A stretch of DNA of 64,000 nucleotides, taken from positions 248,001-312,000 of the forward strand of contig NZ_JBDOIO010000004.1 in assembly GCF_039831995.1 (NCBI RefSeq). The letters run 5' to 3'. Positions 42,379 through 64,000 of the stretch are shown here, piece after piece (position 1 is the stretch's first letter; every line of letters starts with the position of its first letter). The position numbers and the translations under genes are program-made. The notes beneath the pieces are model-generated. The model was not told where the DNA came from and ran no database searches. It saw only the letters and a program-made list of their open reading frames with translations. Source of the DNA: Paenibacillus pabuli. Its GTDB lineage: Bacteria; Bacillota; Bacilli; Paenibacillales; Paenibacillaceae.

Positions 42379-45135
42379 CTATCTCAAAATGGTGGTTGCC
42401 TTATTGCCTGCATAATCTTCAATAACGAGCTTCAGCGAGCTGCTGCTGGATGCAGGTGTGAAGGTCATCTCGCTCAACTTTGTTCTTCCCCGAATGATAT
42501 ACGGGAATTTTTGAGTAACGTAAGTCACCCCGAATTCGCGAGGCACTTCATTTTCATAAACATAGATCTTGTACCAGTCCTCCAGATCAGGCAGGGCAAG
42601 TGTGTATTTTCCATCATTTACCGTCACCTTTTCCTTAGCGTATGGTGTAATCTGATGATCAGCCAGTTGTCCAGTATACGTGACCGGTTTTTGGTTACCA
42701 ATGGCAATGTTGAGCTCGTAATGTTCACCATTCGTTGGCAATCCCGTCAGGACAGCAGAAGATTTCCCTTTTTTGACCTGAATGGTCTTCGTGAAGGGTT
42801 CAGTCGTATATTCGGTTTGCAGCGTGAGCTCGATCGCTTCTTTGCCTTTGGTTTTCTTAGGATATTTCCAGCTGACGGTAGCGTCGCCCTGTTTGTTGAA
42901 TTTCACTTGAATGTCCTGAACGGCTGCATCCAAATTATAGGACAGGGTGGCAGGCTCGCTCTCACGGCCATCTGCGCCTACGGCACGAATAGATAGCTCA
43001 CCAGAGCGATTTTTCAAAGATTTAATGTAATAGGTGGAATCATAAATTCCGCCAACATAGGACCCATTTTCATATAAATTGTATTGTTTAACCTTCGAAT
43101 AATCTTCGATATCCCATTCCACAACGAGTTCATCTGTATTGGTCAAAGACTTGGCGATGTGGAAACCTGTAGGGGCATCTGGTTTGGCCGCAGATCCATC
43201 GAAGATACGGATTTCACCGATGTTCATCTGATAATTTTCAACCGTTATCCCATTTGGGTCAAATACCAGTCCGAAAGCCGCAATTTTTTGGCCCGCAAAG
43301 GCACTCAAATCCAGGGAAGCTGTTGTCCAGCCTTTCGTTTGTTTGCCTGAATTCGGAATATTGACTTTGACCACATGGGATGGATCATCTTCCAGAATTA
43401 AACCGACTTGCAGGGTGGACGTATCGCTCTTCGATGGTTTGTTATAAGTGAGTTCCAATGTAGACTTCGCATTAACCGATAGATCAGTTTTGTACAGACG
43501 CAGGAAGTTCTCCGCGTTCAGATCACCGTTAACGACGAGAGAACTGCCACCGTTGAAGGCACCAATGGAATCGTATTCGTAACGGGCACCTTTTTCATAA
43601 GTTGGACCATAGTCAAAATCAACACTCAGCTTATCACCTTCGCTATCCATCCACCACTGCCAGGTGACAGGGATATCCTGGATGTTGATGTTGGACCATT
43701 CGGTATCATTGGATACCTTCCCGTTTTCATAATATTGCAGACCATGTCCTGTATTGAAATTCGTAGTAAAGTTTGAACCATTAATGACCGAACGTTCCGT
43801 AAGGTAGGCAGCTATGCCGTCCCAATTGGCGCCGGAAGCATAGACATCCGACAGATCAACCGATGCATTGCGGCGGGCTTCGCTAGGGTCCTGATTCGGT
43901 CCTGACCACCAGGCACGATCGCGTACAAAGGTCATCCACTGATATTCGTCTTCAGCCCTGTGATTAGTGCTGCCATCGCCCATCTCTTCATCAAGGGCAT
44001 TATGGGTAAAGTCTGCACCCAGCGTTGCTATGCTGTTCATCGGCTGGCCGTTCTCATCCAGATTGTTGCGCAGGTCATAGAGCTGTTTCCAGCGTCCAAA
44101 CCGGTCATGGCCGCCTTCAACTCCGGCGAAGACTGTTTCCAGCGGATCAAGTCCAAGGCTAACGGCATGATCACGTGAATCCTGCAGCATCTCATGGTTC
44201 CAGACATAGTTCAGGAAAATGGAATCCGAAACTCTGCCCAAGGCCGTGTCCTGTACGAAGGGGCTATTGAGTTCGTTGAACTCATTCTGGTATTGAATCT
44301 GTCCTGTCGTATTAATGGTAGAATCATACCACTGGACATAGAGGCCCTGATCTCTTAAATATTGCATGAATTTTTTGTAGGATGGAATGTCTTCAGGAGC
44401 AACGCCCTTCGCTACCTCTTCCTGATTGAAGAAGTATCCATCATAATTATAATACTTGGCCATCTCCGCCAATTTGACAGCGACCGGGAAATTGCCGTCT
44501 TCATCCTGTACGAGCATCTGCTTGTACGTTTGAGGACCACGGTCATTGTCGGAGAAGAAAATGTTAGCGATGGAACGAACGCCGTTTTTGTGCGCGGCAT
44601 TGGTGTAAGCCGGGTTTGGAATGTTCAGAATGCCAAACTCGAAATATCGCTCTGTCCACTCCTTGTTCGGGTCGTACAGCTCTTCCGGCACTCCGGCAGA
44701 AGCCATACCATGCCAATAGCTGTAATAGTCTGTATATTGCCAATAATTGAACAGATACTGGCTAAACTCGTTGGTATAAGGGGTACTGTCGAAGAACGCA
44801 TTGCCGTAATCACCACTCATCGTAAACAGCTGGGTGTCCGGACTAAGTTCGGGGTAGGCCTGTGTGGCGGCAAAGGCGTCATTACGCGGCTGCAATGGGA
44901 CATGTGCACGAAGCAGTTCTCCATAGATATCACTCTCGGGTGTCCAGTTCAGAATCTGGGCAGAGGTGTAGCCATGCTGATAGGGCTGATTAACGCCTTT
45001 GGCACTGTCACCTGTGTAGGGGAGTGTATCTCCCGCATAGACAGATGAGGCGACCAATTGTCCGAGCAGGGCTGACGTAATGGCCAGTGCAGTTACCTTG
45101 GGAATGATGCCTTTCGGTTTGAGTTTGCGTGTCAT
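42379..45135 (-). CDS. Secreted endo-beta-N-acetylglucosaminidase, GH85
   Basis: 918 residues with a cleavable signal peptide ending near Ala34. GH85 barrel at ~55-430 with the motif YDGYFFNQEE: Asn237 (stabilises the substrate oxazoline) and Glu239 (acid/base), as in Endo-A/Endo-D. A beta-sandwich domain (~500-650), a fibronectin-III-like domain (~655-740) and further small beta domains follow. No LPXTG, SLH or lipobox, so it is released or held by its binding domains. Cuts the chitobiose core of N-linked glycans, freeing high-mannose oligosaccharide. Strong GAAGGAGG site. Divergent from the two-component genes. Confidence 0.94.
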   Translation of the reverse strand: MTRKLKPKGIIPKVTALAITSALLGQLVASSVYAGDTLPYTGDSAKGVNQPYQHGYTSAQILNWTPESDIYGELLRAHVPLQPRNDAFAATQAYPELSPDTQLFTMSGDYGNAFFDSTPYTNEFSQYLFNYWQYTDYYSYWHGMASAGVPEELYDPNKEWTERYFEFGILNIPNPAYTNAAHKNGVRSIANIFFSDNDRGPQTYKQMLVQDEDGNFPVAVKLAEMAKYYNYDGYFFNQEEVAKGVAPEDIPSYKKFMQYLRDQGLYVQWYDSTINTTGQIQYQNEFNELNSPFVQDTALGRVSDSIFLNYVWNHEMLQDSRDHAVSLGLDPLETVFAGVEGGHDRFGRWKQLYDLRNNLDENGQPMNSIATLGADFTHNALDEEMGDGSTNHRAEDEYQWMTFVRDRAWWSGPNQDPSEARRNASVDLSDVYASGANWDGIAAYLTERSVINGSNFTTNFNTGHGLQYYENGKVSNDTEWSNINIQDIPVTWQWWMDSEGDKLSVDFDYGPTYEKGARYEYDSIGAFNGGSSLVVNGDLNAENFLRLYKTDLSVNAKSTLELTYNKPSKSDTSTLQVGLILEDDPSHVVKVNIPNSGKQTKGWTTASLDLSAFAGQKIAAFGLVFDPNGITVENYQMNIGEIRIFDGSAAKPDAPTGFHIAKSLTNTDELVVEWDIEDYSKVKQYNLYENGSYVGGIYDSTYYIKSLKNRSGELSIRAVGADGRESEPATLSYNLDAAVQDIQVKFNKQGDATVSWKYPKKTKGKEAIELTLQTEYTTEPFTKTIQVKKGKSSAVLTGLPTNGEHYELNIAIGNQKPVTYTGQLADHQITPYAKEKVTVNDGKYTLALPDLEDWYKIYVYENEVPREFGVTYVTQKFPYIIRGRTKLSEMTFTPASSSSSLKLVIEDYAGNKATTILR

Positions 45136-45210
45136 GCTGTTCCTCCTTCAAGTGGACTGAATGTAAGGTATTCGTTTACACAAATATAAACTTATGGTTA
45201 ACGATAGAGC

Positions 45211-45227
45211 ATGAAAGCATTTTCAAA
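45211..45227 (-). promoter_or_regulatory. cre-like element upstream of GH85 gene
   Basis: Minus strand TTTGAAAATGCTTTCAT, identical over 17 bp to the element at 48894. TGAAAATGCTTTCA fits the CcpA cre consensus TGWAANCGNTNWCA with one mismatch and overlaps a TTGAAA that could be the -35. Confidence 0.7.
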
Positions 45228-45346
45228 TAGGGCGAAATTAAAGAAAGGCAGGTATAAACTAAAGAAAAGTTCGAGGTGAGAAGTTAATGTCAGAGGGCAA
45301 ATGATATAATTCAGATAGGACAACCGCATCGGGGGGAACTTGCGAT

Positions 45347-47176
45347 TTGAAAATTGTTAGCGTTTACAATAATTTCTTCAAAAATAATATGTTTATGAAA
45401 ATGCTGCTTATTTTCTCGATGATTTCGATTGTGACGATTATTACATTGTCGTATATCATTTTCTTATCGGTGTCCGACTCCACGATCCGCCGTGAACTGG
45501 CTATCCAAAAGGCAGCGATGGAAAGCGTGGACCGATATATTCATCAGCAGTATGAGTCGGTGCAAAATATGGTGAGAGATATGCATCAAAATGAGGCACT
45601 GTCGGCCAATATCTCCTATCTGATGAGCCATACCTATGCGGATTATGTCCAGCATCTGACGAACGGATATTATGCCAATCAGGATGACTATTCCGCCGAT
45701 GTACTGAAACATTTCCAGAACATTATGGATCGAAATGCGGATATCCATCAGTTGATGTTATATAGTGCAGAGCGCCAGGACATGTCCATGTTCAGCCCCA
45801 ATAGGCAATTCAAGAAGCTGGACACCAATGCTGCCCATTCCTATATTCCTGACGTGATGGCCATGGAGACACCTAATATCAGTGCACCCAACTACTGGAT
45901 TCGCAAAGAGATTAATGAATGGAGCCCGGACCTGTACGCGATTCGTGTTCCCATCAACAATACACAGACGCTGCGGAATCTGGGCCAATTCCTCGTATTT
46001 TTTGACTCTGCAGGCATTGGTAACGCGCTGGATAGTTATGAGAGTAACTTTAAAGGAGAGATTGTGGTACTGTCGGCAAAAGGTACCGTTTTATTCGACT
46101 CCAGCAGCAACTATTACGGCAAGAAATATCCTTATGTTGAAGTGGCGGACTCGCTGTTCGACCAGACCGACATGGACTCGATGAAAATGGAAAAGAACAT
46201 GTATGTAAACAAGTTTGTCTCGGCAGACCAGGGTTATGTGATTGTAGCCACGGTTCCTGTGAAGGAGATGGCTGAGGCTTATTCGGGTATTCGGAATACG
46301 ATTATTACGATCAGCACCGTATGTACCCTGTTTGCCGTGCTTGTTCCGGCGTTTTTTATCATTAACTTTGCCAAGCGAACCCGGAGAATTATCCGATTCA
46401 CCCAGAAGGTGAAGTATGGCAATCTCAGTGCGCGTATTGAAGACACCCGTGACGATGAGCTTGGACAGATCTCGCACAGCTTTAACGATATGCTGGATGA
46501 ACTGAATTTGTATATTGAGCGGGTGTACAAAGCCGAGATCAAACAAAAGGAGACAGAGCTGGTTGCTCTTCAGGCCAGAATCAATCCTCATTTTCTCTAT
46601 AACACGCTTGAAGTGATACGAATGAGAGCCATTTCCCAGGGGGCAAGGGATGTTGGTGAGATGATCTACAGTTTATCCGTGCTGTTCAAGAGCCTTGTTC
46701 AGCAGAAGAAAAACTATACATTGAAGGATGAGATGGAGGCTTGTCGTCTATATCTGGAGCTCTTTCGAATCCGTTACAAGGATATCTTCACCTATACCAT
46801 TCAATTGGATCCTGTGCACAATCAACATCCTGTGGTCAAGCTGTCACTGCAGCCGATCATTGAAAACTATGTCGTGCACGGAATCCAGACGGAACGCTCG
46901 GATAACAAGTTGTCCATTGTGGTGGAAGAGCTTGGTGATGTGCTGCAGGTGGAAGTCAGAGATAATGGCAAAGGCATTGCTCCTGCCAGATTGACTGAAA
47001 TTCGTGAAGAGCTCGAGCGTCCGGAGGAATCGGGACAAATGTTTGGGCTGCGCAGTGTGCACAGTCGTCTGCGCTACCTGTATGGACCGGAGTTTGGAAT
47101 AACGATAGAGAGTACGCTTGGAGAAGGAACGCTGATCAGGGTGCGTTATCCTCATACGGAAGGGACAGGTGTTTAG
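45347..47176 (+). CDS. Sensor histidine kinase, YesM family
   Basis: 609 residues, TTG start with GGGGGGA upstream. TM helix 1 at ~17-39, an extracytoplasmic Cache-type sensor, TM helix 2 at ~317-340, HAMP, phosphoacceptor His415 in ARINPHFLYNTLE and a HATPase domain (LQPIIENYVVHG, DNGKGIAP). Typical LytS/YesM-type kinase paired with YesN-type regulators controlling sugar ABC operons. Likely senses the released N-glycan or its loaded receptor. A TATAAT lies at 45305; its stop is 1 nt before the regulator start. Confidence 0.93.
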   Translation: MKIVSVYNNFFKNNMFMKMLLIFSMISIVTIITLSYIIFLSVSDSTIRRELAIQKAAMESVDRYIHQQYESVQNMVRDMHQNEALSANISYLMSHTYADYVQHLTNGYYANQDDYSADVLKHFQNIMDRNADIHQLMLYSAERQDMSMFSPNRQFKKLDTNAAHSYIPDVMAMETPNISAPNYWIRKEINEWSPDLYAIRVPINNTQTLRNLGQFLVFFDSAGIGNALDSYESNFKGEIVVLSAKGTVLFDSSSNYYGKKYPYVEVADSLFDQTDMDSMKMEKNMYVNKFVSADQGYVIVATVPVKEMAEAYSGIRNTIITISTVCTLFAVLVPAFFIINFAKRTRRIIRFTQKVKYGNLSARIEDTRDDELGQISHSFNDMLDELNLYIERVYKAEIKQKETELVALQARINPHFLYNTLEVIRMRAISQGARDVGEMIYSLSVLFKSLVQQKKNYTLKDEMEACRLYLELFRIRYKDIFTYTIQLDPVHNQHPVVKLSLQPIIENYVVHGIQTERSDNKLSIVVEELGDVLQVEVRDNGKGIAPARLTEIREELERPEESGQMFGLRSVHSRLRYLYGPEFGITIESTLGEGTLIRVRYPHTEGTGV

Positions 47177-47177
47177 C

Positions 47178-48692
47178 ATGTACAACGTATTTATTGTGGA
47201 CGATGAGCCGTTCATCATTGAAGGGTTATACGAGATTGTGGATTGGTCCTCGTTTGGAATGGAAATTGTAAACCATGCCGGCAATGGCCAGGCGGCGCTC
47301 CGAGCTCTGTCTGCCCAACCTGTCGACATTCTGATCACGGATATTTCAATGCCCATTATGAATGGATTGGATCTGATTCGGGAAGCAAGGCGTGTCCAGC
47401 CTGACCTTAAAGTGATTATTCTCAGCGGATTCAATGAGTTCGAATACTTGAAAGAAGCCATGCAGCTGGGGATCGAAAATTATCTGCTCAAGCCGATCAA
47501 TGTGGAGGAGCTGGAATCAACGCTGCGCAACACGGCCTCCAAGCTGGATCAAGTGCCAGCCAAAACAAGTTATGATGCCTACGGTATTCAAATTCTGAAG
47601 GACAACATTCTCCATCGATGGTTGACGGGGCAGATCGCAACGGCAGAATTCGAGGAGCGTTCTCTGTTCATGAATCTTACACTGGATGGGCCTTGCTATG
47701 GCATTGCCATTCTTCGTACGAAAGGAGAAGAGCCGGGCATATTTGAACAAGTGCAGCGTTTACTTGTAGACAAGCCTTATGTGAGTACTTTCCATGATTT
47801 GGATGGCGATATCGTTATGATTGCGAGTTTGGACGAGCAGCAGGTGGATAGACAGATGTTCATGGATTGCGTTACATCTTTATCCAGGCAGACCGCAGAA
47901 GCGCACCCGTCGGTTTATATTGGTGTGGGGAGCATGGCCCAGGGGATCCATAAGGCTCCCGCGAGTTACAAAGAAGCCAAGCGGGCTCTGCAGTATGTGA
48001 TGATCTACCCTGATCTGAAGGTGATCGATCATGCGATTCTTGAAACGGGAAGCAGTGCTGGCAGTCGTTTTTCCTTCGACTGGAAGGAATACGCCAAGCT
48101 GATGTTATCTCGCAATACCGAACAGCTTGCGGAGCGAATCCAAACGGATTTTGAACAGTATCGCGACGGAATGACCCCTGTGGAACTGCAGCATACGGCA
48201 CTCGAATTGGTAATTCGCTTCAAGATGGAACTGGAGAGCATCAAGCATACGGACGAGTCTGTCATTTACCAAAAGGGACTAAGGCGGGTACTGGGCAGCA
48301 GTACCTTTGCGGAACTGGTGCAGGCCCTTCAGCAAGTGGGGAGCGAGACGATTGAATCTCTGCTGCAGGATCTGAAAAATCCGATCGTGAGCCAAGTGCT
48401 TCAGCATATCGACAAGCATTACGCAGAAGAGCTTTCCCTGAAGCTGCTTGGGGCACATTATCATCTGCATCCCGTGTATCTTGGACAACTGTTCCACAAG
48501 GAGACGGGAGAGACTTTTGCCGAGTACATCAATAAATACCGGATCGAGCGCGCCAAGGAACTGCTGCGCAGCTCCAATCTGAAGGTGCATGAGATCGCAA
48601 GAAACGTTGGATATTGGGAGACGGGGTATTTTTATAAACAATTCCGCAAATATGTAGGCATTTCACCGACCGATTTCAAGGTTTATAGTTAA
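47178..48692 (+). CDS. Response regulator, YesN family (REC-AraC)
   Basis: About 504 residues. Receiver domain with acidic pair VDDE, phosphoacceptor Asp55 in ILITDISMP and Lys in LLKP; a long linker; AraC-type DNA-binding domain at the C-terminus (LKLLGAHYHLHPVYLGQLFH and VHEIARNVGYWETGYFYKQF). Expected to activate the transporter/glycosidase operon and perhaps the GH85 gene. Confidence 0.93.
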   Translation: MYNVFIVDDEPFIIEGLYEIVDWSSFGMEIVNHAGNGQAALRALSAQPVDILITDISMPIMNGLDLIREARRVQPDLKVIILSGFNEFEYLKEAMQLGIENYLLKPINVEELESTLRNTASKLDQVPAKTSYDAYGIQILKDNILHRWLTGQIATAEFEERSLFMNLTLDGPCYGIAILRTKGEEPGIFEQVQRLLVDKPYVSTFHDLDGDIVMIASLDEQQVDRQMFMDCVTSLSRQTAEAHPSVYIGVGSMAQGIHKAPASYKEAKRALQYVMIYPDLKVIDHAILETGSSAGSRFSFDWKEYAKLMLSRNTEQLAERIQTDFEQYRDGMTPVELQHTALELVIRFKMELESIKHTDESVIYQKGLRRVLGSSTFAELVQALQQVGSETIESLLQDLKNPIVSQVLQHIDKHYAEELSLKLLGAHYHLHPVYLGQLFHKETGETFAEYINKYRIERAKELLRSSNLKVHEIARNVGYWETGYFYKQFRKYVGISPTDFKVYS

Positions 48693-48731
48693 TTCGGTAA
48701 CTGGGAAATTCGATCTGCTGCCTCAACGTAT

Positions 48732-48800: not shown

Positions 48801-48893
48801 TCATGTAAGCGATTTATTAAATCAGTGACAAAAACAAGAGTCAGGGAGAATATCTCTTTAATTTGTACCTCGAAAACTTAAGTTTATCTTCTT

Positions 48894-48910
48894 TTTGAAA
48901 ATGCTTTCAT
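48894..48910 (+). promoter_or_regulatory. cre-like element upstream of the glycan transporter operon
   Basis: TTTGAAAATGCTTTCAT, identical to the element ahead of the GH85 gene, 65 bp before the lipoprotein start. A weaker cre-like TGTAAGCGATTTAT sits at 48804. Confidence 0.72.
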
Positions 48911-48974: not shown

Positions 48975-50447
48975 ATGCTTAAAAAAAGAAAAAGTTTTTC
49001 TCTCGTCCTGGCATTATTAATGGCCGTTACACTTGTATTGAGTGCCTGTGGTGGAAGCGAGAGTGCTTCGGAATCCGGCGGGGCTGGAGATGATTCAGTC
49101 GAATTGATCTGGTACACCATCGGTACCCCGCAAAAAGATGTGAACAAGGTCATGGAAGAAGTCAGCAAGTATACCAAGGAAAAAATCAATGCAACCGTAA
49201 CGATGAAAATGGTCGATTGGGGTGACTACCCTCAAAAGATGCAGGTCAATGTGGCTTCAGGTGAGCCCATGGATATTCTGTTCACTTCTTCGGGCGGATT
49301 CGACTATGTACAGAATGCCAGAAAAGGCGCATTTATGGAGCTGGATGAACTGCTTCCGGAATACGGCAAGGAGCTAAGCGAAACAATCGATCCGGCATTC
49401 CTCAGCGGTTCCAAAGTGGATGGTCATAACTACGGTATTCCAGCCAACAAGGAGCTGCCGCAGCAGGAGGTATGGCGTTTCAACAAAACGCTGCTCGATA
49501 AATACAAGCTGGACATCTCCAATATCCGCACCTTGGATAGCCTCGAACCTTTGCTCAAAACAATCAAGGAAAATGAGCCAAGCGTGACGCCATTTGCAAT
49601 GGATAAAAACTATGTTCCTTACGTTCCTTATGACTATGTCATTCAAAATTTGCCCATGGCAATCAAACTTGACACAACGGATTACAAACTCGTGAACATC
49701 CTGGAGACTCCTGAAATGAAGGAAGCGCTCACAACGATGAACAAATATTACAAAGCTGGCTATGTGTCTGCTGAGGCGGCAACAACGGGATCAACCAATG
49801 ACCTGACGACATCGGGCAACTGGTTCCTGGATCGTGCACAGACACAACCACTGGCTGACAATCAATGGTCTGCAAGTTATGGATACCCTGTCGTTTCTAC
49901 ACCGGCAAGTGATGCCATCATCACAAACACTTCCGTACAAGGATCCATCATGGCGATCTCTGCCAACTCCGAGTATCCGGAAAAAGCTATGGAATTCCTA
50001 AACCTGCTCAATACCGATCCGGTGCTGCGCAACATGGTGGACTCCGGTATCGAGGGCACGCACTACAAAAAAGTGGACGACACACACATGGAAAACTTGC
50101 CGGAATCGAAGAACTACGATATGCCATCGTATTCCCTCGGTAACAACATGCTGCTCTATCTGAACAACAACGATCCGGATAACAAATGGGATGAGTTCAA
50201 GAAATTTAATGCTGAAGGCGTGAATTCTCCAATCCTCAGCTTCAACTTTGATGCAAGCAACGTTTCTGCTGAATTGACAGCTGTACAAAACGTGAAAGAA
50301 CAATACTGGGCCGCATTGATGACTGGTACGCTGGACCCGGCGACCAACTTGGATCAGGTCATTGAGAAGTTCAATCAAGCCGGTCTTGAGAAGGTAATGG
50401 CTGAAGCCCAAAGCCAGCTTGATGCCTGGAGAGCGGAAAATAAGTAA
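48975..50447 (+). CDS. Oligosaccharide-binding lipoprotein of the N-glycan importer
   Basis: 490 residues. Signal peptide with lipobox LSAC, lipidation at Cys25, Gly/Ser/Glu-rich linker, then a DUF3502-like/family-1 solute-binding domain (WYTIGTPQKDVNKVMEEVSK). The setting (GH85 outside, GH38/GH125 inside) makes a high-mannose N-glycan the probable ligand, analogous to the NgtS receptor of pneumococci. GGGAGGATC precedes the ATG. Confidence 0.9.
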   Translation: MLKKRKSFSLVLALLMAVTLVLSACGGSESASESGGAGDDSVELIWYTIGTPQKDVNKVMEEVSKYTKEKINATVTMKMVDWGDYPQKMQVNVASGEPMDILFTSSGGFDYVQNARKGAFMELDELLPEYGKELSETIDPAFLSGSKVDGHNYGIPANKELPQQEVWRFNKTLLDKYKLDISNIRTLDSLEPLLKTIKENEPSVTPFAMDKNYVPYVPYDYVIQNLPMAIKLDTTDYKLVNILETPEMKEALTTMNKYYKAGYVSAEAATTGSTNDLTTSGNWFLDRAQTQPLADNQWSASYGYPVVSTPASDAIITNTSVQGSIMAISANSEYPEKAMEFLNLLNTDPVLRNMVDSGIEGTHYKKVDDTHMENLPESKNYDMPSYSLGNNMLLYLNNNDPDNKWDEFKKFNAEGVNSPILSFNFDASNVSAELTAVQNVKEQYWAALMTGTLDPATNLDQVIEKFNQAGLEKVMAEAQSQLDAWRAENK

Positions 50448-50460
50448 GGTTACATTCGTA

Positions 50461-54784: not shown

Positions 54785-57700
54785 TTGGAACGTATTAGAC
54801 GATTTATTCGCGAATTGTCCGAACATCAGTGGCTGGAGCAAATGGAGCTTCGCAGCTGGAACATCACCCGTGCTTATTATGACGTGCCGGGAAAATATGA
54901 GACTCAAGGGCCTTATCCGGAGGGAGAAGGCCTGGATCGTTTTCCAAGCACGCAGGGAACCACATACTTCTTTCGGACCCGTCTGGAGGTCCCCTCTTCC
55001 TGGCAGCATGCGCCATTCGGACTGTTGTTTCAATCGGGAGGAGAAGGATTGCTGCGGGTGAATGGCCGTTCCTATCAGGGTCTGGATCGCAATCATACGT
55101 ACGTTACGCTTGACCCATCCAGCATTGGAATCCATCCTGAACTTGAAATCGAACTGTTCGATCCGGTACCTGAGCCTGTTGATCCGTTGAACCAGCAGGC
55201 CGTAATTCAGCCGCCAATCACATCAATCACTAGTTTGTTGGTGAGACCGAACGAGGCGGTTCGCAGCCTGATGTATACGCTCATCATTGTACGGGATTCG
55301 GCTGTACTGCTGCCCGAAAGCGACTTCCGACGTGTACGCCTGCTGGAAGCCATCTATCGTGCAATGGATCAATTTGTCGGCCTCACAGATGAAGAGATTA
55401 AGCAGGGGGAAGGCATTCGCCAGATTGAAGAGAGTTTAGCGAATCAAGTACGGGAGATTGGTGGTAACGCCGAAGGTCTTGAACATATGGTGGGACAGTC
55501 CCACATCGATATTGCCTGGCTGTGGCCTGTACGGGAGACGGTTCGCAAGACAAGTCGTACATTCTCAACCGTGGATGCACTAATGAACGAATATCCCGAT
55601 TATGTGTACTCCCAGAGCCAACCTTTGCTGTATGCCTTTCTGAAGGAACATGATCCCGAATTGTATGCACGGGTGAAGCAGCGCATTGCAGAAGGACGCT
55701 GGGAACTGGTTGGCGGCATGTGGGTTGAGCCGGATCTGAACATTCCGAGCGGGGAGTCCCTGATTCGCCAAATGTTATATGGCCAGCGTTTTTACATGGA
55801 GGAGTTCGGTAAGACATCCCAGATTGAATGGCTGCCGGATACATTCGGGTACTGTGCCTCCCTGCCCCAGATTTTGAAGCATGGTAATGTAGAATATTTC
55901 ATGACGACGAAGCTGGGATGGAACGATACCAATGTATTCCCATACGATCTCTTTCACTGGGTTGGCATTGACGGTACACCGATCCTGTCCTACCTCAACC
56001 ATGGTGTCAACGAACACACCTTACCGAAGGATATTCATGATCACTGGCAGTCCTACCGTGAGAAAGCAGCACACCCCGAGCACATGCTCCTGTATGGACA
56101 TGGTGATGGCGGCGGCGGGGTAACCCGCGAGATGCTGGAATATGTGGATCGCGCAGACCTGATGGTAGGACAGCCTGCTAGTCGCTACAGTACAGCAGCA
56201 GCTTTTTTTGCAGGCATTGAAGCAGAGCAACCTAAACTTCCTGAATGGCACGGTGATCTGTACCTGGAACTGCATCGAGGCACATATACGACACATGCAC
56301 GCAACAAGCGGAATAATCGCAAAGCAGAGGTTCTGTATCGTGAAGCCGAGCTGTGGAACACTCTCGCTCTGCCGGACATGGAGACTCAGGCGGAAAAGGA
56401 AGTGCGTTCCGCACTGCATGAGGGCTGGAAGCTGATTTTGCTGAATCAATTCCACGATATTATTCCAGGATCTGCGATTACGGAGTCCTACGTGACTTCG
56501 GATGAGGAATATGTACGGGTTTTCGAGTTAGGTAGAGCAGGGCTGAACCAAGGCGTTGAGGCATTGACGGCGGGCATTAATACACAGGGGCCCGAGGGTT
56601 CAGAGGCCTATGTGGTGTTCAACAGCCTCGGCTGGAAGCGTAGTACTGTCGTTCAGCTCCCCGTGCACGATGGCTTGGAGCGTTACGCGATAGATGAAGA
56701 GGGTCAGCGCCTGAGACTGGATCGGGAGGATCACACGATTTCGATTCTTGTGAACGACATTCCGGCATTAGGGTATAAGACGATTTGGCTGGTACCTGAA
56801 AACATGAGGGAAACGAATGTACGAGAAGTGATCAGCTTTACCGGTCAACCAGCCTTTAACGATACATGGGATACCGCGTTCTATCATGCAGAGTTTAACG
56901 AACGAGGTGAGATTACTCGTCTGTGGGATAAGGCAGCAGAGCGGGAAATGCTGAAGCCGGGTGAACGGGGCAACCAATTCCACTTTTTCCACGACCGTCC
57001 AACGCTCTGGGATGCATGGGATATCGACAGCCGTTATGAAGAGCAGGTTGCCGGGGAAGTGGAGCTATTGGAGAAAAAACTGGTGCTGGCTGGTACAACG
57101 AAGGATGTACTGCGTTTCCGCTGGAAACTCCACCAATCGGTAATTACACAAGATATCGTCTTCTACCATGAGTCACGGCGGATCGACTTCCAGACACAGG
57201 TGAGCTGGAACGAAAATCACAAGCTTCTAAAAGTCGGTTTTCCAATCGATGTCGTGACTTCCAAAGCGACCTACGAAATTCCCTTTGGCGCATTGGAGCG
57301 GCCAACGCACCGTAACACCAGTTGGGAACAGGCCCAGTATGAAGTCTGTGGTCACCGGTTCGCGGATGTATCCGAATACGGATACGGCGTGAGCTTGCTC
57401 AATGACTGCAAATACGGCTATGACGTACAGGGAAGCACCATCCGTTTATCCCTGCTTCGTGCACCGAAATGGCCGGACCGTACGGCTGATCTGGGCGAAC
57501 ATGAATTCACGTATTCCCTGTATCCGCATGAAGGGGACTGGCGTAAAGCACACACGGTACGTCATGCTGCAGAGCTGAATCATGAGGTAACCGTGCAGCA
57601 TGCGGAGCAAAGCGCAGGCAGACGTCCGGCAACAGGGGCATGGATCAATTTTGATAGCAGCCATGTTGTACTGGATACGGTTAAGCCGGCCGAAGACGGA

Positions 57701-57892
57701 CACGGCACGATACTTCGTTTCTATGAATCTTCAGGCAAGCGCGAACAGGTAACCCTGCAATGGCCGCATGCATTTGAACAGGCGTACCTCTCCAATGCGT
57801 TGGAAGAAGCGGGAGAGCCTCTGGACAGCAGCAATGGTCAGATTACATTATCTTTTAAACCTTACGAAATCAAAACCGTGCTGCTGCGGTAA
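54785..57892 (+). CDS. Alpha-mannosidase, GH38 (first)
   Basis: 1035 residues, TTG start with GGGAGGCG upstream, no signal peptide. GH38 zinc site QSHIDIAWLWP (His240, Asp242), nucleophile Asp352 in WLPDTFGY, and LLNQFHDIIPGS with the last zinc-binding His. A long C-terminal beta domain follows. Domain layout is that of class II lysosomal/Ams1-like mannosidases. Removes alpha-1,2/1,3/1,6 mannose from imported glycans. Starts 4 nt after the GH3 stop. Confidence 0.94.
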   Translation: MERIRRFIRELSEHQWLEQMELRSWNITRAYYDVPGKYETQGPYPEGEGLDRFPSTQGTTYFFRTRLEVPSSWQHAPFGLLFQSGGEGLLRVNGRSYQGLDRNHTYVTLDPSSIGIHPELEIELFDPVPEPVDPLNQQAVIQPPITSITSLLVRPNEAVRSLMYTLIIVRDSAVLLPESDFRRVRLLEAIYRAMDQFVGLTDEEIKQGEGIRQIEESLANQVREIGGNAEGLEHMVGQSHIDIAWLWPVRETVRKTSRTFSTVDALMNEYPDYVYSQSQPLLYAFLKEHDPELYARVKQRIAEGRWELVGGMWVEPDLNIPSGESLIRQMLYGQRFYMEEFGKTSQIEWLPDTFGYCASLPQILKHGNVEYFMTTKLGWNDTNVFPYDLFHWVGIDGTPILSYLNHGVNEHTLPKDIHDHWQSYREKAAHPEHMLLYGHGDGGGGVTREMLEYVDRADLMVGQPASRYSTAAAFFAGIEAEQPKLPEWHGDLYLELHRGTYTTHARNKRNNRKAEVLYREAELWNTLALPDMETQAEKEVRSALHEGWKLILLNQFHDIIPGSAITESYVTSDEEYVRVFELGRAGLNQGVEALTAGINTQGPEGSEAYVVFNSLGWKRSTVVQLPVHDGLERYAIDEEGQRLRLDREDHTISILVNDIPALGYKTIWLVPENMRETNVREVISFTGQPAFNDTWDTAFYHAEFNERGEITRLWDKAAEREMLKPGERGNQFHFFHDRPTLWDAWDIDSRYEEQVAGEVELLEKKLVLAGTTKDVLRFRWKLHQSVITQDIVFYHESRRIDFQTQVSWNENHKLLKVGFPIDVVTSKATYEIPFGALERPTHRNTSWEQAQYEVCGHRFADVSEYGYGVSLLNDCKYGYDVQGSTIRLSLLRAPKWPDRTADLGEHEFTYSLYPHEGDWRKAHTVRHAAELNHEVTVQHAEQSAGRRPATGAWINFDSSHVVLDTVKPAEDGHGTILRFYESSGKREQVTLQWPHAFEQAYLSNALEEAGEPLDSSNGQITLSFKPYEIKTVLLR

Positions 57893-57943
57893 ACCTTTTT
57901 GATATATTCCTTGAGCTATATAGGAGTAACGTATTTACACGAT

Positions 57944-58055
57944 AACGGAGAGGCAGAAAGGATCCGAAGAAGCGAAGCGTTCGCCTTTATCCCCGGGTTT
58001 TCCCTTTGAAGAAGGGAATTCAAAAAATCTGGGGATAACAGCGATCGGAGGATAT
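57944..58055. repeat. Dispersed hairpin repeat, copy B
   Basis: Aligns with 26992-27105. Outer stem TATCCCC (57988-57994) / GGGGATA (58031-58037), inner TTCCCTT / AAGGGAA, 5' mini-hairpin GCGAA-GCG-TTCGC. Lies in the 240-bp gap between the GH38 and GH125 genes; the rest of the gap shows nothing else. Confidence 0.82.
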
Positions 58056-58142
58056 TTCTGACGCGCAGTGGTCCAGTGTAAAATTGATGTTTTATCCTAA
58101 ATAGCTACACCATTCAATACGTTTAAGGAGTTGCACTCATCC

Positions 58143-59462
58143 ATGGAACAATTCAGATTACCCAAAATACCAATGCCGCCTGTTGCTGTGCCGCAATCCA
58201 TTCAGGCAGTGCTCGAAGAAGCGGAACAGAAGCTGGCTCACAGACCGAAGCTGCTTCAGTTATTCAAGAACTGTTTCCCCAATACGATCGAAACGACAAC
58301 GAAACTGATGGACGATGGCACGACTTTTGTCATCACCGGAGACATTCCGGCCTCATGGCTGCGTGATTCCGTGGAGCAGGTGGTGCACTACATTCCGTTT
58401 GCGAAGGAAGATGAGGACCTGCAGCGGATCATCGGCGGGCTGATCAAGCGCCATATCCAGTATGTTCATATTGATCCGTATGCCAATGCCTTCAATGAGA
58501 CAGCCAATGACTGGCATTGGAACACAACGGATGAGACCGACATGTCGCCTTGGGTATGGGAACGCAAATTTGAGATTGATTCGCTGTGCTTTGTTGTGCG
58601 GCTCGCCTACTTATATTGGAAGGAAACGGAGCTGACCGACATTTTTGATTCCAGCTTCAAGGCAGCCATGCGCAAAATCGTGGATCTGTTCAAAGTGGAA
58701 CAGCATCACATGGAACAATCTCCATATCGCTTCACGCGCAATAACGGCATTCCTACAGATTCTCTGCGTAATCATGGGAAAGGCATGCCGGTCAATTATA
58801 CAGGCATGATCTGGTCCGGCTTCCGTTCCAGCGACGATGTGTGCGATTTTCACTACAACATCCCAGGCAACATGTTTGCAGTTGTCGCTTTGCGCCAGAT
58901 GCAGGAGTTTGCCGAGTGGGTGTTCCGGGATATGGCACTGCTGCAGGAGCTTAAGGATCTGGAGCAGGACGTGGATCACGGCATTCAGTTGTACGGCATC
59001 TATCGTCATCCGGAATTTGGCCCTATCTATGCGTACGAGACGGATGGGTACGGTAACTACTGTCTCATGGATGATGCCGGTACACCGGGACTGATGTCAA
59101 TTCCATATCTGGGTTACGTTACTGCAGATGATCCGATCTATCAAAATACCCGCCGATTTGCCCTGAGCAAAGAGAACCCGTTCTATTATGAGGGCAAGGT
59201 TGCGAAAGGCATCGGCAGCCCGCACACGCCACAGGATTACATCTGGCATATGGGCTTATCCATGCAGGGACTGACGGCACAATCCGCCGAGGAGAAGCTG
59301 GAAATCATTCGTATGCTGGAAGCAACAGATGCGGATACAGGTTATATGCATGAAGGTTTCCATGCGGATGATCCAACGATTTTTACGAGAAAATGGTTTG
59401 CATGGTCCAACAGCCTGTTCTCCCAGTTGGTCTATAAATCCATGAAGGATGGCCTGTTATGA
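58143..59462 (+). CDS. Exo-alpha-1,6-mannosidase, GH125
   Basis: About 439 residues, no signal peptide. GH125 landmarks: GDIPASWLRDSVEQV near residue 65, SGFRSSDDVCDF (Asp231/Asp232, catalytic acid region), PGNMFAVVALRQM, and MHEGFH with Glu404 as probable general base. Inverting enzyme specific for alpha-1,6-linked mannose of N-glycans in clostridial and streptococcal relatives. ATG 58143 is taken as start, though AAGGAG is 12 nt upstream; TTG 58131 touches it. ATGA overlap with the next gene. Confidence 0.94.
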   Translation: MEQFRLPKIPMPPVAVPQSIQAVLEEAEQKLAHRPKLLQLFKNCFPNTIETTTKLMDDGTTFVITGDIPASWLRDSVEQVVHYIPFAKEDEDLQRIIGGLIKRHIQYVHIDPYANAFNETANDWHWNTTDETDMSPWVWERKFEIDSLCFVVRLAYLYWKETELTDIFDSSFKAAMRKIVDLFKVEQHHMEQSPYRFTRNNGIPTDSLRNHGKGMPVNYTGMIWSGFRSSDDVCDFHYNIPGNMFAVVALRQMQEFAEWVFRDMALLQELKDLEQDVDHGIQLYGIYRHPEFGPIYAYETDGYGNYCLMDDAGTPGLMSIPYLGYVTADDPIYQNTRRFALSKENPFYYEGKVAKGIGSPHTPQDYIWHMGLSMQGLTAQSAEEKLEIIRMLEATDADTGYMHEGFHADDPTIFTRKWFAWSNSLFSQLVYKSMKDGLL

Positions 59463-62400
59463 GCACACATGTGAAGGGAAACAAGCTGATTATCTTCGCT
59501 GATCCCGATTTTCCAGTAGAAAGCCAGCGGCCATCACACCAGGCTCTGGATACTTGGCAAGGGTCCAATGAGATCATCGTTGCAAGCGCAGGCGAACTGG
59601 CTGAGGTGTTGAATGCAGCAGCAGGTGAGGGTTGTTTGGTGAATCTGCACGCACCCTACTTTCCAAAATTCGCCTGGACTGCAATTGCAGCCTACCTGCA
59701 TCAGGGAGGAAGCCTGATCAGTGTGGGTGGTTCTCCCTTCAAGCGTCCTGTCCGGGATGAGGACGGAGCTTGGGTTGTAGAGTCAGAGCAGACCGCATAC
59801 CATCAGGAGCTTTATATTCATGAGGCGTTAAATGTATCTTCAGCGAGTGTACAAACGTACGCTTCATCTGAACAAATTTCACTACTTGCTGGCAAAGAGG
59901 ACTTGTTTGAAATCGCAGATACGTGGAATCTGGTGCCGCATACCACCAAATCAAGTGATCTGCCTCACCAGATGGGTTCGGCTGGACCGATGAGCACGCA
60001 GATCTATCCGCTACTTTGCGGCGTGAGCAAGGATGGGCGCAGCATCGCCGCTCCGGCCGTCCTGTGGGAGAACTCCCGCAGTACATTTGCCGGTTCACGA
60101 TGGATGTTTGTGAATCTGCCGCTGACCGCCTCATTCTGGGAGCAGGACGGTGCTAACGAGATTGTGAAGTGGGCCCAATTCTGTGCCAAAGGGGTAACCG
60201 AGCTGTCCCTGAAACCCAACTATGCGACGTATGAACCAGGTGAACGGGCTGTACTTACGCTTCAGGGTCAGATTTTACAGCGTACTGGCGACAGACGTGC
60301 GGTGTCCGAGCTGTGGACGTTCGACCTGACCGTTGAAAGGGAGGATCGGACAACCGCTACGACTGAGAAGGTATGGAGCCACCAGCTGGAGATGGAGCTT
60401 TCGGGAGAGCAGCAGTTTGCGCGTCTTACACTCCCGGCTTCAGTAGAAAGTGGGCTGTACCGAATCGTATGCCGTGCGCAAGCACCTGACGGGGAAGTTC
60501 GAATTTTGCGCCAAGGTTTCTGGGGTCAGGATGACGCATTGCTTGCTGAAGGGGAAGTGATTACCCGGAGCAGAGACTATTTTGTAAAAGACGGACGACC
60601 TCTGCCTGTTGTAGGCATGACGTACATGACCTCCGATGTAGCCCGGAAATTCCTGTTTCTGCCGAACGCCGACGTATGGGATCGGGACATGGCACAGATG
60701 GCGAAGGCCGGTATTAACTGGATTCGGACCGGGATCTGGACGGCCTACCGCAATATGATGCAGGTGGACGGACATATGGCAGAGGACGTGCTTCGCGCGA
60801 TTGATGCCTTCCTGTTAACGGCGAAGCGCCACGGCCTGCAGGTCACGTTTACGTTCTTTTCCTTTACACCTGAGACGTGGGAAGGCACGAATCCCTATCT
60901 GGACCCGCAAAGCGTCGAGGCACAGAAGCGTTTCATCCGCAGCATTGTCAGCCGGCATACGCATACCACCCATGTGGATTGGGATCTGATTAACGAGCCA
61001 TCCATGTTTGATCCGGTGCGCATCTTCTCGGCTGGCCCACGCTCGGCCAGGGATTCGCATGAACAGCAGGCATTTGTCGATTGGCTGCAGCAGCGGCATG
61101 AGACCATTGAAGCGCTGCAAGAAGCATGGAACATGTCACCGAAGCAGCTTCCAAACTTTGCAGCTGCAGTTATTCCGGAGCCGGAAGAGATTAACTTTGA
61201 TGTACAGGACATGCACAAAGCGAAAAAAGGAACCCGCTGGCTCGATTATTGTCTCTTCTCGATGGAGATGCACAATGTTTGGGCAAGAGAGCTAGTAGGT
61301 ACGATTAAGGATCTGGTGCCGGATCATCTGGTTACCGTAGGTCAGGACGAGGCCCTGGGTGCACAGCGTCCTTCGCCGTTTTTCTATGAACGCGAAGTGG
61401 ATTATACAACCGTGCACTCCTGGTGGTTAAACGATGATCTGATCTGGGACGGCATTTTCACCAAAACGCCGTATAAACCGAATCTCATTCAGGAAACGGG
61501 CATCATGTATGTGGAAACTCCGGATGGACGTGCCAAGCGTACGGAAGCAGAGCTTCGCAGCATCCTTGAACGAAAGTATGCCTATGCTTTCGCCACAGGT
61601 GGTGCCGGAGCGGTGCAATGGATCTGGAATACCAACTTTTATATGGATAATGCCAATGAGTCTCATATCGGGGCACTTCGTGCAGATGGTACAGAGAAGC
61701 CGGAAGCGGATGTATCCTATGATTTTGGCCGATTCATGCACAAGGTGCGTGATCTCTTCGAGGATCGCGAGCTGGAGGATATTGCGGTGGTGTTCCCGTA
61801 CTCCAATGACTTCTCCAACCGTTCCCTTGCTTACGATGCAACAACCAAGCTTACGCGTGTGATGTCCTATGATCTGAAACTGCCGTTCCGTGCCGTATCC
61901 GAATATCATTTGGAAGCACTGGAGCAGCAGCCACCGAAGCTGATTATCGTACCGAGTCCGCATAATATGGATACGGAGGCATTGCTTCAGCTTCTTGCAT
62001 TCACGGAGAAGCAGGGTGCATGCCTGCTGATCACTGGACCGCTGGGACTGGACGCGTACTGGAAGGCAAGTGATCGGGCAGATCATATCGTGGGTAAACG
62101 CAGTTTGGGTAACGTGCAGCGTGAGGAACTGCTAAATATTAATGGAGTGAATCACCGAGTAACCTATGGAAGACGCCGTATTGCGGAAGTGGCAAAGGAG
62201 AATTTGCTTCATGGGGATAAGGTTACACCAGATGAAGTGACTATTGTGCCATGGGGAAAAGGGAAAATCATGTGGACCCCGCTGCCCCTCGAGCTTAACG
62301 GACGGGATGAGCCGCTCGCGGACCTGTATCGTTATGCGGCCGAAACGGCTGGTATCTATCAGGAGCTGGAATGGATATCTGGCGGAGAAATCGTAGGGAT

Positions 62401-62629
62401 TTATGGCCGGAAGCTGAGTTTTCCAAAAGGAAATCTATATGTATTTGTGTCAGAGTCTTCACTCAATCATAAGGTTCATGTAAGAGATACCCGCACTGGC
62501 GTATCCTATGAATTCCAATTGGAGAAAAATCGCTCCGTGCTGTTTGCCACAGATGCTGCAGGAAAACTGCATACGGTGTATCGCCCTGAAGATGTTGAGA
62601 TTGTACAACAAGATGGAGAGGTGGGCTAA
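59459..62629 (+). CDS. Unassigned clan GH-A glycoside hydrolase, candidate beta-mannosidase
   Basis: 1056 residues, no signal peptide. Residues 1-230 look like a ThuA/glutamine-amidotransferase-type fold (LHAPYFPKFAWTAIAAYLHQGG), 230-370 a beta-sandwich, 375-740 a TIM barrel with acid/base Glu513 in DWDLINEPSMF and nucleophile Glu679 in LIQETGIMY, and 760-950 a second Rossmann-like module resembling the trimerisation domain of GH42 (PKLIIVPSPHNMD). It resembles GH42/GH5-like retaining enzymes but is not confidently assigned to a family. Operon context (coupled to GH125 by ATGA) makes the core Man-beta-1,4-GlcNAc linkage the likeliest target; beta-galactosidase is the main alternative. Confidence 0.78.
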   Translation: MSTHVKGNKLIIFADPDFPVESQRPSHQALDTWQGSNEIIVASAGELAEVLNAAAGEGCLVNLHAPYFPKFAWTAIAAYLHQGGSLISVGGSPFKRPVRDEDGAWVVESEQTAYHQELYIHEALNVSSASVQTYASSEQISLLAGKEDLFEIADTWNLVPHTTKSSDLPHQMGSAGPMSTQIYPLLCGVSKDGRSIAAPAVLWENSRSTFAGSRWMFVNLPLTASFWEQDGANEIVKWAQFCAKGVTELSLKPNYATYEPGERAVLTLQGQILQRTGDRRAVSELWTFDLTVEREDRTTATTEKVWSHQLEMELSGEQQFARLTLPASVESGLYRIVCRAQAPDGEVRILRQGFWGQDDALLAEGEVITRSRDYFVKDGRPLPVVGMTYMTSDVARKFLFLPNADVWDRDMAQMAKAGINWIRTGIWTAYRNMMQVDGHMAEDVLRAIDAFLLTAKRHGLQVTFTFFSFTPETWEGTNPYLDPQSVEAQKRFIRSIVSRHTHTTHVDWDLINEPSMFDPVRIFSAGPRSARDSHEQQAFVDWLQQRHETIEALQEAWNMSPKQLPNFAAAVIPEPEEINFDVQDMHKAKKGTRWLDYCLFSMEMHNVWARELVGTIKDLVPDHLVTVGQDEALGAQRPSPFFYEREVDYTTVHSWWLNDDLIWDGIFTKTPYKPNLIQETGIMYVETPDGRAKRTEAELRSILERKYAYAFATGGAGAVQWIWNTNFYMDNANESHIGALRADGTEKPEADVSYDFGRFMHKVRDLFEDRELEDIAVVFPYSNDFSNRSLAYDATTKLTRVMSYDLKLPFRAVSEYHLEALEQQPPKLIIVPSPHNMDTEALLQLLAFTEKQGACLLITGPLGLDAYWKASDRADHIVGKRSLGNVQREELLNINGVNHRVTYGRRRIAEVAKENLLHGDKVTPDEVTIVPWGKGKIMWTPLPLELNGRDEPLADLYRYAAETAGIYQELEWISGGEIVGIYGRKLSFPKGNLYVFVSESSLNHKVHVRDTRTGVSYEFQLEKNRSVLFATDAAGKLHTVYRPEDVEIVQQDGEVG

Positions 62630-62632
62630 CTC

Positions 62633-64000
62633 ATGACGGAACAAAAGAATAAACCAAAAACCAAAAGAGCCCATATCATTTCGCACACCCACTGGGATCG
62701 GGAATGGTACCTGCCCTATGAGAAGCATCATATGCGGCTCGTTCAACTGGTGGATTCACTGTTAGATGAGCTCGATGAGGGAGCGGACTACAAAAGCTTC
62801 TACCTGGATGGACAAACGATCATCATCGACGATTATCTCCAGGTTCGCCCGGAGCAAAAGGAGCGGCTGGAGAAGCATATCCGGAATGGCCGGATCGTGA
62901 TCGGGCCTTGGTATATCTTGCAGGATGCGTTCCTTACCAGTGGTGAAGCCAATGTGCGCAATATGCAGGTTGGACATCGGGATGCGAAGCGTTACGGCAC
63001 GCCTTCTAAGATCGGTTATTTTCCCGATACGTTCGGGCTGGTTGGACAGACGCCGCAGCTCATGCTGCAATCTGGCATCGATAACGTCTTTTTTGGAAGA
63101 GGCGTGAAACCTACAGGTTTCAATAATACAGTATCGGATGCAGGTTACGAATCCAGCTTCTCGGAGCTGATGTGGGAAGGTCCGGATGGATCGAAAGTGC
63201 TGGGTGTGCTATTTGCCAATTGGTATTCCAATGGTAATGAAATTCCGGTAGACGAGGCTTCAGCCCGCAAATTCTGGGAAACGAAGCTGGCAGATGCCGA
63301 GAAATATGCCTCGACCAATGAGCTGCTGTACATGAACGGATGTGATCACCAGCCTATTCAGCGGGATCTGCCTGAGGCAATCCGAATGGCCGAGCAATTA
63401 CATCCCGACATTGAGTTCGTTCACTCCAACTTTCCAGATTATCTGACTGCTCTGAAAGAATCAGCGGAACATGAGTTGTCCACGGTAAAAGGAGAGCTGC
63501 GCAGCCAGCGTACCGATGGCTGGGGTACCCTGGTGAACACCGCTTCTGCACGGGTTTATCTGAAACAGATGAACCAGCTTGGTCAAGCCATGCTGGAAAA
63601 GGTGGCTGAGCCACTGGCATCCTATGCCCATCTCCTTGGACATGCTTATCCGCATGATCAACTGACCTATGCCTGGAAAACGCTGATGCAGAACCATCCG
63701 CATGACAGTATTTGCGGCTGCAGTGTGGATGAGGTCCACTGCGAGATGGTCACACGATTCGAGAAGAGTCGTCACGTCGCTGAAGCGATGATTGAAGAGA
63801 GCACAAGTCAGATTGCTGCTTCGGTGGATACCTCAATTTTTGCCAGTTATGGTGAAGATCCGCGACCACTGATCACGTTCAATACGACAGGGTGGGAGCG
63901 CAGCGGCGTTGTTCAGATCGAACTGGATGCTGCTCGTATCTACTTCCGTGATGGAATTTCATTAGAGGATATGGCTGCCCAAATGAACAACGTAGATCTG
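62633..64000 (+). CDS. Alpha-mannosidase, GH38 (second; 3' end outside window)
   Basis: 456 residues seen, open to the right edge. N-terminus RAHIISHTHWDREWYLP holds the zinc site (His20, Asp22), nucleophile Asp132 in GYFPDTFGLVGQ, and NHPHDSICGCSVDEV the later zinc His. The HTHWDREW pattern is that of the MngB/bacterial branch, different from the first GH38, so the pair probably splits linkages. Starts 3 nt after the clan-A gene with GAGAGGTGG upstream. Confidence 0.93.
   Translation, partial: MTEQKNKPKTKRAHIISHTHWDREWYLPYEKHHMRLVQLVDSLLDELDEGADYKSFYLDGQTIIIDDYLQVRPEQKERLEKHIRNGRIVIGPWYILQDAFLTSGEANVRNMQVGHRDAKRYGTPSKIGYFPDTFGLVGQTPQLMLQSGIDNVFFGRGVKPTGFNNTVSDAGYESSFSELMWEGPDGSKVLGVLFANWYSNGNEIPVDEASARKFWETKLADAEKYASTNELLYMNGCDHQPIQRDLPEAIRMAEQLHPDIEFVHSNFPDYLTALKESAEHELSTVKGELRSQRTDGWGTLVNTASARVYLKQMNQLGQAMLEKVAEPLASYAHLLGHAYPHDQLTYAWKTLMQNHPHDSICGCSVDEVHCEMVTRFEKSRHVAEAMIEESTSQIAASVDTSIFASYGEDPRPLITFNTTGWERSGVVQIELDAARIYFRDGISLEDMAAQMNNVDL

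Follow-up and report, generated by a model that had tools for sequence, protein, structure and literature searches.

How a bacterium of a common soil and plant genus could release, import and dismantle N-glycans is the question raised by a gene block of Paenibacillus pabuli. The block lies in the window analysed here, a 64,000-nucleotide stretch (C4:248001-312000, contig NZ_JBDOIO010000004.1) of a 6.95-Mb genome, and codes for a secreted endoglycosidase of glycoside hydrolase (GH) family 85, a YesM/YesN pair, a receptor with two permeases, and five further glycosidases. It is very probably an N-glycan locus. That it is an N-glycan utilisation island following pneumococcal logic with a different tool set is the whole explanation that we favour with some reserve. 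Gene content, kinship of the receptor, constancy of a trio of glycosidases, the predicted fold of one of them, conservation of a candidate operator and the position between dnaB and dnaI were computed directly. Open reading frames (ORFs) for all genes named in the initial annotation were found in their places, with Pfam matches over cut-off. Chance is not in question for the family assignments because the best-family E-values per protein run from 7.6e-8 (the clan-A enzyme) and 2.7e-12 (a permease) up to 1e-155 (GH125). The block comprises:

42379..45135, minus strand: secreted GH85 endo-β-N-acetylglucosaminidase, 918 amino acids (aa), with an fn3-like stretch (PF03644, 2.7e-68, 231 bits)
45347..47176, plus strand: YesM-type sensor histidine kinase, 609 aa (Pfam His_kinase, HATPase_c, HAMP)
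47169..48692, plus strand: YesN-type response regulator with AraC-type helix-turn-helix, 507 aa (Response_reg, GGDEF_2, HTH_18)
48975..50447, plus strand: NgtS-like solute-binding lipoprotein (the receptor), 490 aa (SBP_bac_1 and DUF3502, LSAC lipobox)
50527..51456, plus strand: ABC permease 1 (Pfam BPD_transp_1)
51481..52395, plus strand: ABC permease 2 (Pfam BPD_transp_1)
52429..54780, plus strand: GH3 enzyme of β-glucosidase/β-xylosidase type, 783 aa (PF00933/PF01915; N, C and Fn3-like domains), accessory
54785..57892, plus strand: GH38a, Ams1-type α-mannosidase, 1035 aa (four Pfam GH38 domains, N domain 281 bits), accessory
58131..59462, plus strand: GH125 α-1,6-mannosidase, 443 aa (Pfam 519 bits, model positions 2-413 of 414), constant core
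59459..62629, plus strand: clan-A enzyme, candidate β-mannosidase, 1056 aa (partial GH42 Pfam match), constant core
62633..64000, continuing to window-equivalent 65416, plus strand: GH38b, SpGH38-type α-mannosidase, 927 aa, constant core

The N-glycan reading is anchored by the receptor, since this is clearly related to NgtS (E 3e-82). Its three nearest solved chains are 5swa (E 2.7e-82), 5mlt (1.7e-81) and 5suo (3.5e-81). 5SUO and 5SWA are pneumococcal NgtS entries (PMC5215778; articles with a PMC number are cited here and below from the excerpts available), and the letters of 5mlt are identical to the NgtS chains in the printed alignment. NgtS binds Man5GlcNAc and buries its reducing-end GlcNAc, stacking Trp386 against the Man-GlcNAc unit and engaging a terminal mannose through Trp81 (PMC5215778). 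In the window receptor, Trp81 corresponds to Trp82 and Trp386 to Tyr386, at a numbering offset of 23 that was set by Trp81 itself. Among 47 aligned receptors (46 locus proteins and that of the window), the Trp386 position holds Phe (44) or Tyr (3) and the Trp81 position Trp (30), Phe (13) or a gap (4). A genome search covering ATPases with the OB_MalK-type domain found one, which fits a shared importer ATPase. The block itself has no ATPase gene and no GlcNAc-handling gene among its genes, and its earlier description as complete-looking is not borne out.

The α-mannosidases are well placed by structure. GH125 is close to 2nvp (4.5e-155) and 3qt3, the latter being Clostridium CpGH125 (PMC6160142). 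GH38b matches 3lvt/5kbp (1e-275) and SpGH38 (2wyh, 6e-258), and for the SpGH38-type enzyme of Streptococcus pyogenes specificity for α-1,3 links has been demonstrated (PMC2815779). GH38a, in contrast, matches 7vqo (an Ams1 fusion) with 7.8e-156, but SpGH38 only with 4e-13. The GH3 enzyme is nearest to the β-xylosidase 7zb3 (5e-170), and no NCBIfam model exceeded its cut-off; a β-1,2-xylosidase activity is conceivable but less than probable. On contig C3 (G000:C3:395815-402529), a second GH125 gene and a GH130 gene lie about 5 kb apart, and this pair is probably another mannoside locus of the genome.

Which of these genes belong together was followed in the best 80 of 227 loci of relatives from GTDB genomes, fetched with flanks of at most 10 kb. 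GH125 was present in 78 loci, GH38b in 77 by tblastn (none in L031, L078 and L080) and 76 by ORF, and a receptor match in 71. GH38a was found in 34 and GH3 in 31. The clan-A gene stays with GH125 and GH38b even where GH85, GH3, GH38a or the transporter is missing or swapped; the constant part of the system is the GH125-clanA-GH38b trio. The commonest layout (37/80) is YesN, receptor, GH125, clan-A and GH38b, without GH3 and without the Ams1-type GH38. The gene order of the trio is kept in 77 of 79 loci when unmatched ORFs are ignored. This count was preferred over a strict neighbour-distance test, passed by GH125 in 58/79 and GH38b in 74/79 loci, because longest-ORF starts overlap the neighbouring gene. 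In a FastTree of clan-A proteins from 79 of the 80 loci and the window (L073, with no long ORF, was excluded), the island arrangement forms a single clade with support 98. The presence of GH3 needs five changes on this tree, at least four of them forced by well-supported branches, and the GH3 cassette was therefore gained or lost repeatedly.

Four sister loci (L062, L071, L079 and L080) carry two GH29 fucosidase genes immediately before GH125-clanA as well as different permeases, with 34-38% identity where matched; L080 is without GH38b. L062 also encodes an AraC-type regulator, and a transglutaminase-like protein is encoded downstream. In L030 of Paenibacillus sp. P96, an IS1595-type transposase zinc-ribbon protein is encoded downstream of the trio (16259-17236).

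The least familiar member of the trio is the clan-A enzyme. Its Pfam match to GH42 covers 93 residues only (32.5 bits, cut-off 21; model positions 150-235 of 376), and no GH5 match was obtained in Pfam. Two alignments served for modelling, one of 47 homologues (drawn from the 120 best among 585 such proteins) and one of 36 of the 80 loci, each with the window protein. The predicted domains are a ThuA/GATase-like one (3-243), an Ig-like one (246-359), a barrel (~366-767) and a C-terminal part with a GH42/GH164-type domain and a β-sandwich up to 1036. E513 on predicted strand β4 is the candidate acid/base and E679 on β7 the candidate nucleophile. The Asn-Glu on β4 and the Glu on β7 are invariant in 200 of 200 rows, which mix two sets so that some proteins may repeat.

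The predicted architecture shares with GH164 Bs164 of Bacteroides salyersiae (PMC7105311) the barrel, the GH42-type domain B, the C-terminal β-sandwich and the Glu on β4 and β7. The mannose-contacting residues of Bs164 include Arg75, Arg341 and Glu346 (PMC7105311). Unlike Bs164, the clan-A protein has additional N-terminal ThuA/GATase-like and Ig-like domains and α-mannosidase neighbours, and there is no usable sequence match between the two. Membership of GH164 by sequence was rejected, as phmmer gave E 0.15 to the founding Bs164 and a search with the family profile, run to E 0.1, did not recover a Bs164 chain. The GH164 operons examined by the authors of the Bs164 study were judged to serve β-mannan and not N-glycans (PMC7105311). 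In its fold, domain layout and partial Pfam match the clan-A enzyme resembles GH42 β-galactosidases; however, the match is as short as stated and identity to solved GH42 chains is 12-17% over the fold. A further likeness exists to the loci of the GH5_18 core β-mannosidases of Cutibacterium and Bifidobacterium (PMC6160142), in which the gene of a β-mannosidase, predicted to be cytoplasmic, also stands beside GH38 and an importer. Unlike GH5_18, the protein is a multi-domain one of 1056 aa without a Pfam GH5 match, in a comparison that used no GH5_18 subfamily model.

A β-mannosidase activity of the clan-A enzyme is slightly favoured, and we propose that Man-β-1,4-GlcNAc is what it would split; it would then act like the β-mannosidases of GH164 or GH5_18. 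For this linkage, GH2, GH5_18 and GH130 are the only families given in a 2023 review. The clan-A proteins could, as a tentative proposal that falls somewhat short of probable, found a new clan GH-A family of cytoplasmic five-domain Man-β-1,4-GlcNAc hydrolases, widespread in Paenibacillus, used alongside GH125 and GH38 and induced through a YesN operator not defined before; it would be a fourth solution besides the three named. If the prediction is true, a large family whose database label is mostly β-galactosidase would have to be renamed, and the enzyme would offer a new tool for work on the N-glycan core.

The secreted GH85 would supply the substrate. Its structure matches are about equal, EndoD (2w91) with 6.8e-57 and another GH85, 3fha, with 1.4e-54, which we take to be Endo-A, and do not single out one substrate range. 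The motif N237-Q-E239 lines up with EndoD, and its Asn and Glu are presumably the catalytic residues. Leader-like hydrophobic N-termini were recognised on GH85 (ending VYA-G) and on the receptor (LSAC lipobox), and none was evident on the five glycosidases by simple hydropathy and inspection by eye, without a signal-peptide program. This agrees with the earlier assignment of signal peptides to GH85 and the receptor only.

Among 75 genomes of the genus, GH85 exceeded the cut-off in 45, every one of which has the clan-A gene; the clan-A gene alone was found in 6 and neither in 24, including G044 with a sub-threshold GH85 match (Fisher 2e-14, kinship not corrected). The two genes are 3.4-15.7 kb apart in 44 of the 45, fragmentary genes counted, and on separate contigs in G066. 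The co-occurrence for which a check had been suggested holds within the genus and is looser farther away: in the more distant clan-A genomes, taken from 50 of the 80 fetched loci, GH85 was over cut-off in 26 (weakly in G090, G120 and G121, 22.8-27.5 bits) and without a match in 24. Within the fetched flanks, no GH85 was found in any of the 80 loci; that of the island group falls outside the fetched DNA because the flanks are at most 10 kb long. GH85 is an accessory part of the system. The island is without GH85 though the clan-A gene is present in G006, G010, G011, G016, G029 and G066, with a GH85 gene seemingly reduced to pieces in G016 (L160), and GH85 looks repeatedly discarded from the island. 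The clan-A and GH85 genes of G005, G013 and G054 are broken up into several frames or pieces, which may reflect assembly errors in G005 and G054 and, it seems, ongoing loss of the locus in G013. Twelve genomes of the genus (L092-L103) have a higher-scoring GH85 type (306-315 bits) elsewhere, away from the island.

In the pathway that we propose, GH85 would cut between the two core GlcNAc units and release ManxGlcNAc, which the NgtS-like lipoprotein and the two permeases would import, powered by a shared ATPase encoded outside the block. Inside the cell, the glycan would lose its outer mannoses to the Ams1-type GH38a, which would stand in for the absent GH92, its α-1,6 mannose to GH125 and its α-1,3 mannose to the SpGH38-type GH38b. 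GH3 may take off a side sugar, most plausibly β-1,2-xylose of plant N-glycans, and the clan-A enzyme, as a retaining hydrolase using E513 and E679, would split the remaining Man-β-1,4-GlcNAc. YesM would sense the glycan or its fragments, YesN would activate both promoters of the island via a paired operator, and cre-like sites (cre, catabolite-responsive element) could add repression by preferred sugars. All enzyme specificities, most of all those of GH3 for the side sugar and of the clan-A enzyme for the core, and all regulatory acts are what we infer.

The pneumococcal N-glycan system consists of EndoD, NgtS-P1-P2, GH92-GH125-GH38-ROK-GH20 and TCS07 (PMC5215778, PMC7075642). Like it, the island has a secreted GH85, an NgtS-type receptor with two permeases, GH125 with an SpGH38-type GH38, and a sensor/regulator pair, listed there as (YesMN) (PMC11034029). 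The initial annotation, which had recognised a system of this kind, is supported by the kinship of the receptor with NgtS, of GH85 with EndoD and of GH125 and GH38b with α-mannosidase structures (5e-155 and 1e-275). However, the pneumococcal system has GH92, ROK and GH20, whereas the block is without ROK and GH20 and no PF07971 match for GH92 was found anywhere in the Paenibacillus genome. Because GH92 was sought and not found, the island was not classed as a member of the pneumococcal type. The Ams1-type GH38, GH3 and the clan-A enzyme are extras, and all genes of the island, its own two-component system included, stand in one block, as expected for the expanded version that had been suggested for a Paenibacillus. 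The regulon of S. pneumoniae, in contrast, is dispersed, yet it is clustered around TCS07 in other streptococci (PMC7075642). The N-glycan foraging systems of the cited literature with which the island was compared come from gut, skin and pathogenic bacteria. The pneumococcal model as published stops at ManGlcNAc, so that the way in which such bacteria split the last linkage can be put to a direct test with a single protein and a single substrate.

For the core step there is a competing explanation. The clan-A enzyme might remove another β-linked sugar (galactose, arabinose, GlcNAc or xylose), with Man-β-1,4-GlcNAc being broken by a GH130 phosphorylase or a GH2 β-mannosidase coded elsewhere. 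Several results weigh for this and against a core β-mannosidase: GH130-type and GH2-type genes do exist elsewhere in the genome, one of the four GH130 genes being that of the C3 pair, and Foldseek with the clan-A model has a GH42 galactosidase as top match, in line with the partial Pfam match. We nevertheless regard it as rather unlikely. The protein accompanies two α-mannosidases in nearly every fetched locus, it is the sole β-glycosidase candidate in the short operons listed, and VIA-align ranks the GH164 β-mannosidase first. Against solved structures its profile gave weak matches throughout, with two GH5 β-mannanases on top and an exo-β-mannosidase ranked behind two GH42 chains.

Two other readings concern the substrate. 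As GH38 and GH125 also act in α-mannan breakdown (PMC10154615) and many relatives are without GH85, the locus might serve fungal α-mannan or the outer chains of mannoproteins and not the N-glycan core. This is improbable given an NgtS-like receptor, whose relative buries the reducing-end GlcNAc, a linked GH85 in 44 of 75 genus genomes, and the lack of GH92 matches in the genome and of GH76- or GH99-type genes among the island genes (genome-wide these were not searched). The main substrate could also be N-glycans of plants or insects (paucimannose, core xylose, core fucose) instead of the high-mannose type, which is compatible with the N-glycan island as proposed: GH3 would then be a β-1,2-xylosidase and the GH29 enzymes of the sister loci would take core fucose. 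A GH3 of B. massiliensis is a β-1,2-xylosidase of plant N-glycans (PMC9522356), the window GH3 has a β-xylosidase as its nearest structure and two GH29 genes occur in four sister loci. We remain doubtful, as family alone does not tell the specificity of a GH3, GH3 is present in fewer than half of the fetched loci and the GH29 loci have no GH3 match.

The regulatory part of the N-glycan island rests on four sites in its two promoter regions:

45235..45264, plus strand: candidate YesN operator 1, AAATTAAAG-N12-AAACTAAAG, before YesM, conserved in relatives
48856..48885, minus strand: candidate YesN operator 2, AAACTTAAG-N12-AAATTAAAG, 89 nucleotides (nt) before the receptor ATG
45212..45225, plus strand: cre-like site TGAAAGCATTTTCA, between the divergent GH85 and YesM genes
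48896..48909, minus strand: cre-like site TGAAAGCATTTTCA, its start 79 nt upstream of the receptor ATG

In an alignment of 14 relatives and the window, the shared promoter block contains two AAAYTWAAG units with a 21-bp period, on the plus strand before YesM and on the minus strand before the receptor. The operator pattern matches the window twice at up to one mismatch, both times exactly, and was not found in 100 shuffles. The same two matches are the only ones in the genome, for which a reversed control pattern gave four; the case for the operator therefore rests on both matches lying in the two promoters of the island. In 20 further promoter regions, the receptor operator was present at up to two mismatches in all 19 that include the start of the receptor gene, and the YesM operator in 18 of 19 testable ones, twice about 300 bp upstream. 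These loci are not independent of the motif, because it was read from alignments holding 14 of them and the window.

An independent test used 42 distant loci outside the island group with a known receptor start. The operator was found at most 260 bp before the receptor in 39 with up to two mismatches, in 26 with up to one and in 10 exactly. All 39 are on the minus strand and 38 have a 20-bp period. Controls gave 5/840 (shuffles) and 3/800 (other segments) at up to two mismatches and 0/840 and 0/800 at up to one. The cre-like site follows the operator at a fixed distance of 39 nt in 30 of the 42 loci and at 40 nt in one; eight have an operator without it and three have no operator. The YesM promoter of the distant loci was without the motif in 38 of 40. 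The candidate operator probably belongs to YesN, and would be a concrete binding-site proposal for a YesMN-type regulator. The excerpts of the pneumococcal TCS07 study report no binding motif (PMC7075642), and a later study gives a TCS07-type motif as a candidate only (PMC11034029). The RR07 candidate motif CTWWWWWWAG was not found in the two island promoters. The window contains two exact copies of TGAAAGCATTTTCA, a sequence that resembles cre. CcpA may act at these sites; the receptor-side one may overlap the -35 region, and conservation of a -35 region could account for part of the cre-like stretch.

The island splits the core gene pair dnaB-dnaI. Its left neighbour and a repeat within it are:

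40743..42278, plus strand: dnaB-type helicase-loader gene, outside the island (Pfam DnaB_2 21.7 bits, cut-off 22)
57933..58090, no strand assigned: dispersed structured repeat in the GH38a-GH125 gap, 42 genome matches (itself and some split copies counted)

The best NCBIfam models of the left neighbour are DnaB, below cut-off. On the right, GH38b stops at C4:313416, 1.4 kb beyond the window, as anticipated for a block reaching past its end, and is followed by dnaI and uvrC. Of the named loci that were fetched, those of Paenibacillus sp. ACRRY and P. illinoisensis are the closest, with protein identities of 93-94% (clan-A), 99% (receptor) and 99% (dnaI). In 30 genomes chosen from the 75, dnaB and dnaI are 40-363 bp apart (alignment ends) in 23 and 1.19 kb in two, G053 (L126) and G069 (L124); the spacers of these two and of G043 hold no island DNA. 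YesM instead follows dnaB in five, without a GH85 match between them, and one of the five (G004) has YesM but no clan-A gene. The same module with GH85 within 25 kb is located elsewhere in G014, G017, G024, G059, G061 and G074. From the spacings and the island clade, we conclude that insertion of the island between these two core replication genes took place in a single clade. The tRNA scan, which ended at 64000 and so did not cover the right flank, gave no tRNA in the window, and the annotated genes include no integrase or other mobility gene.

The tight coupling described for the glycosidase genes holds for GH3/GH38a (+4), GH125/clan-A (-4, ATGA) and clan-A/GH38b (+3), and YesM/YesN overlap likewise (-8). 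The run is broken between GH38a and GH125 because of a 238-nt gap, which is mostly occupied by the dispersed repeat. This element of about 150 bp is strongly folded (z -3.75) and had no Rfam match at gathering score. Its other copies are 73-88% identical, and some of the matches are pieces of one copy. Copies also occur between dnaB and YesM in L127 and L128.

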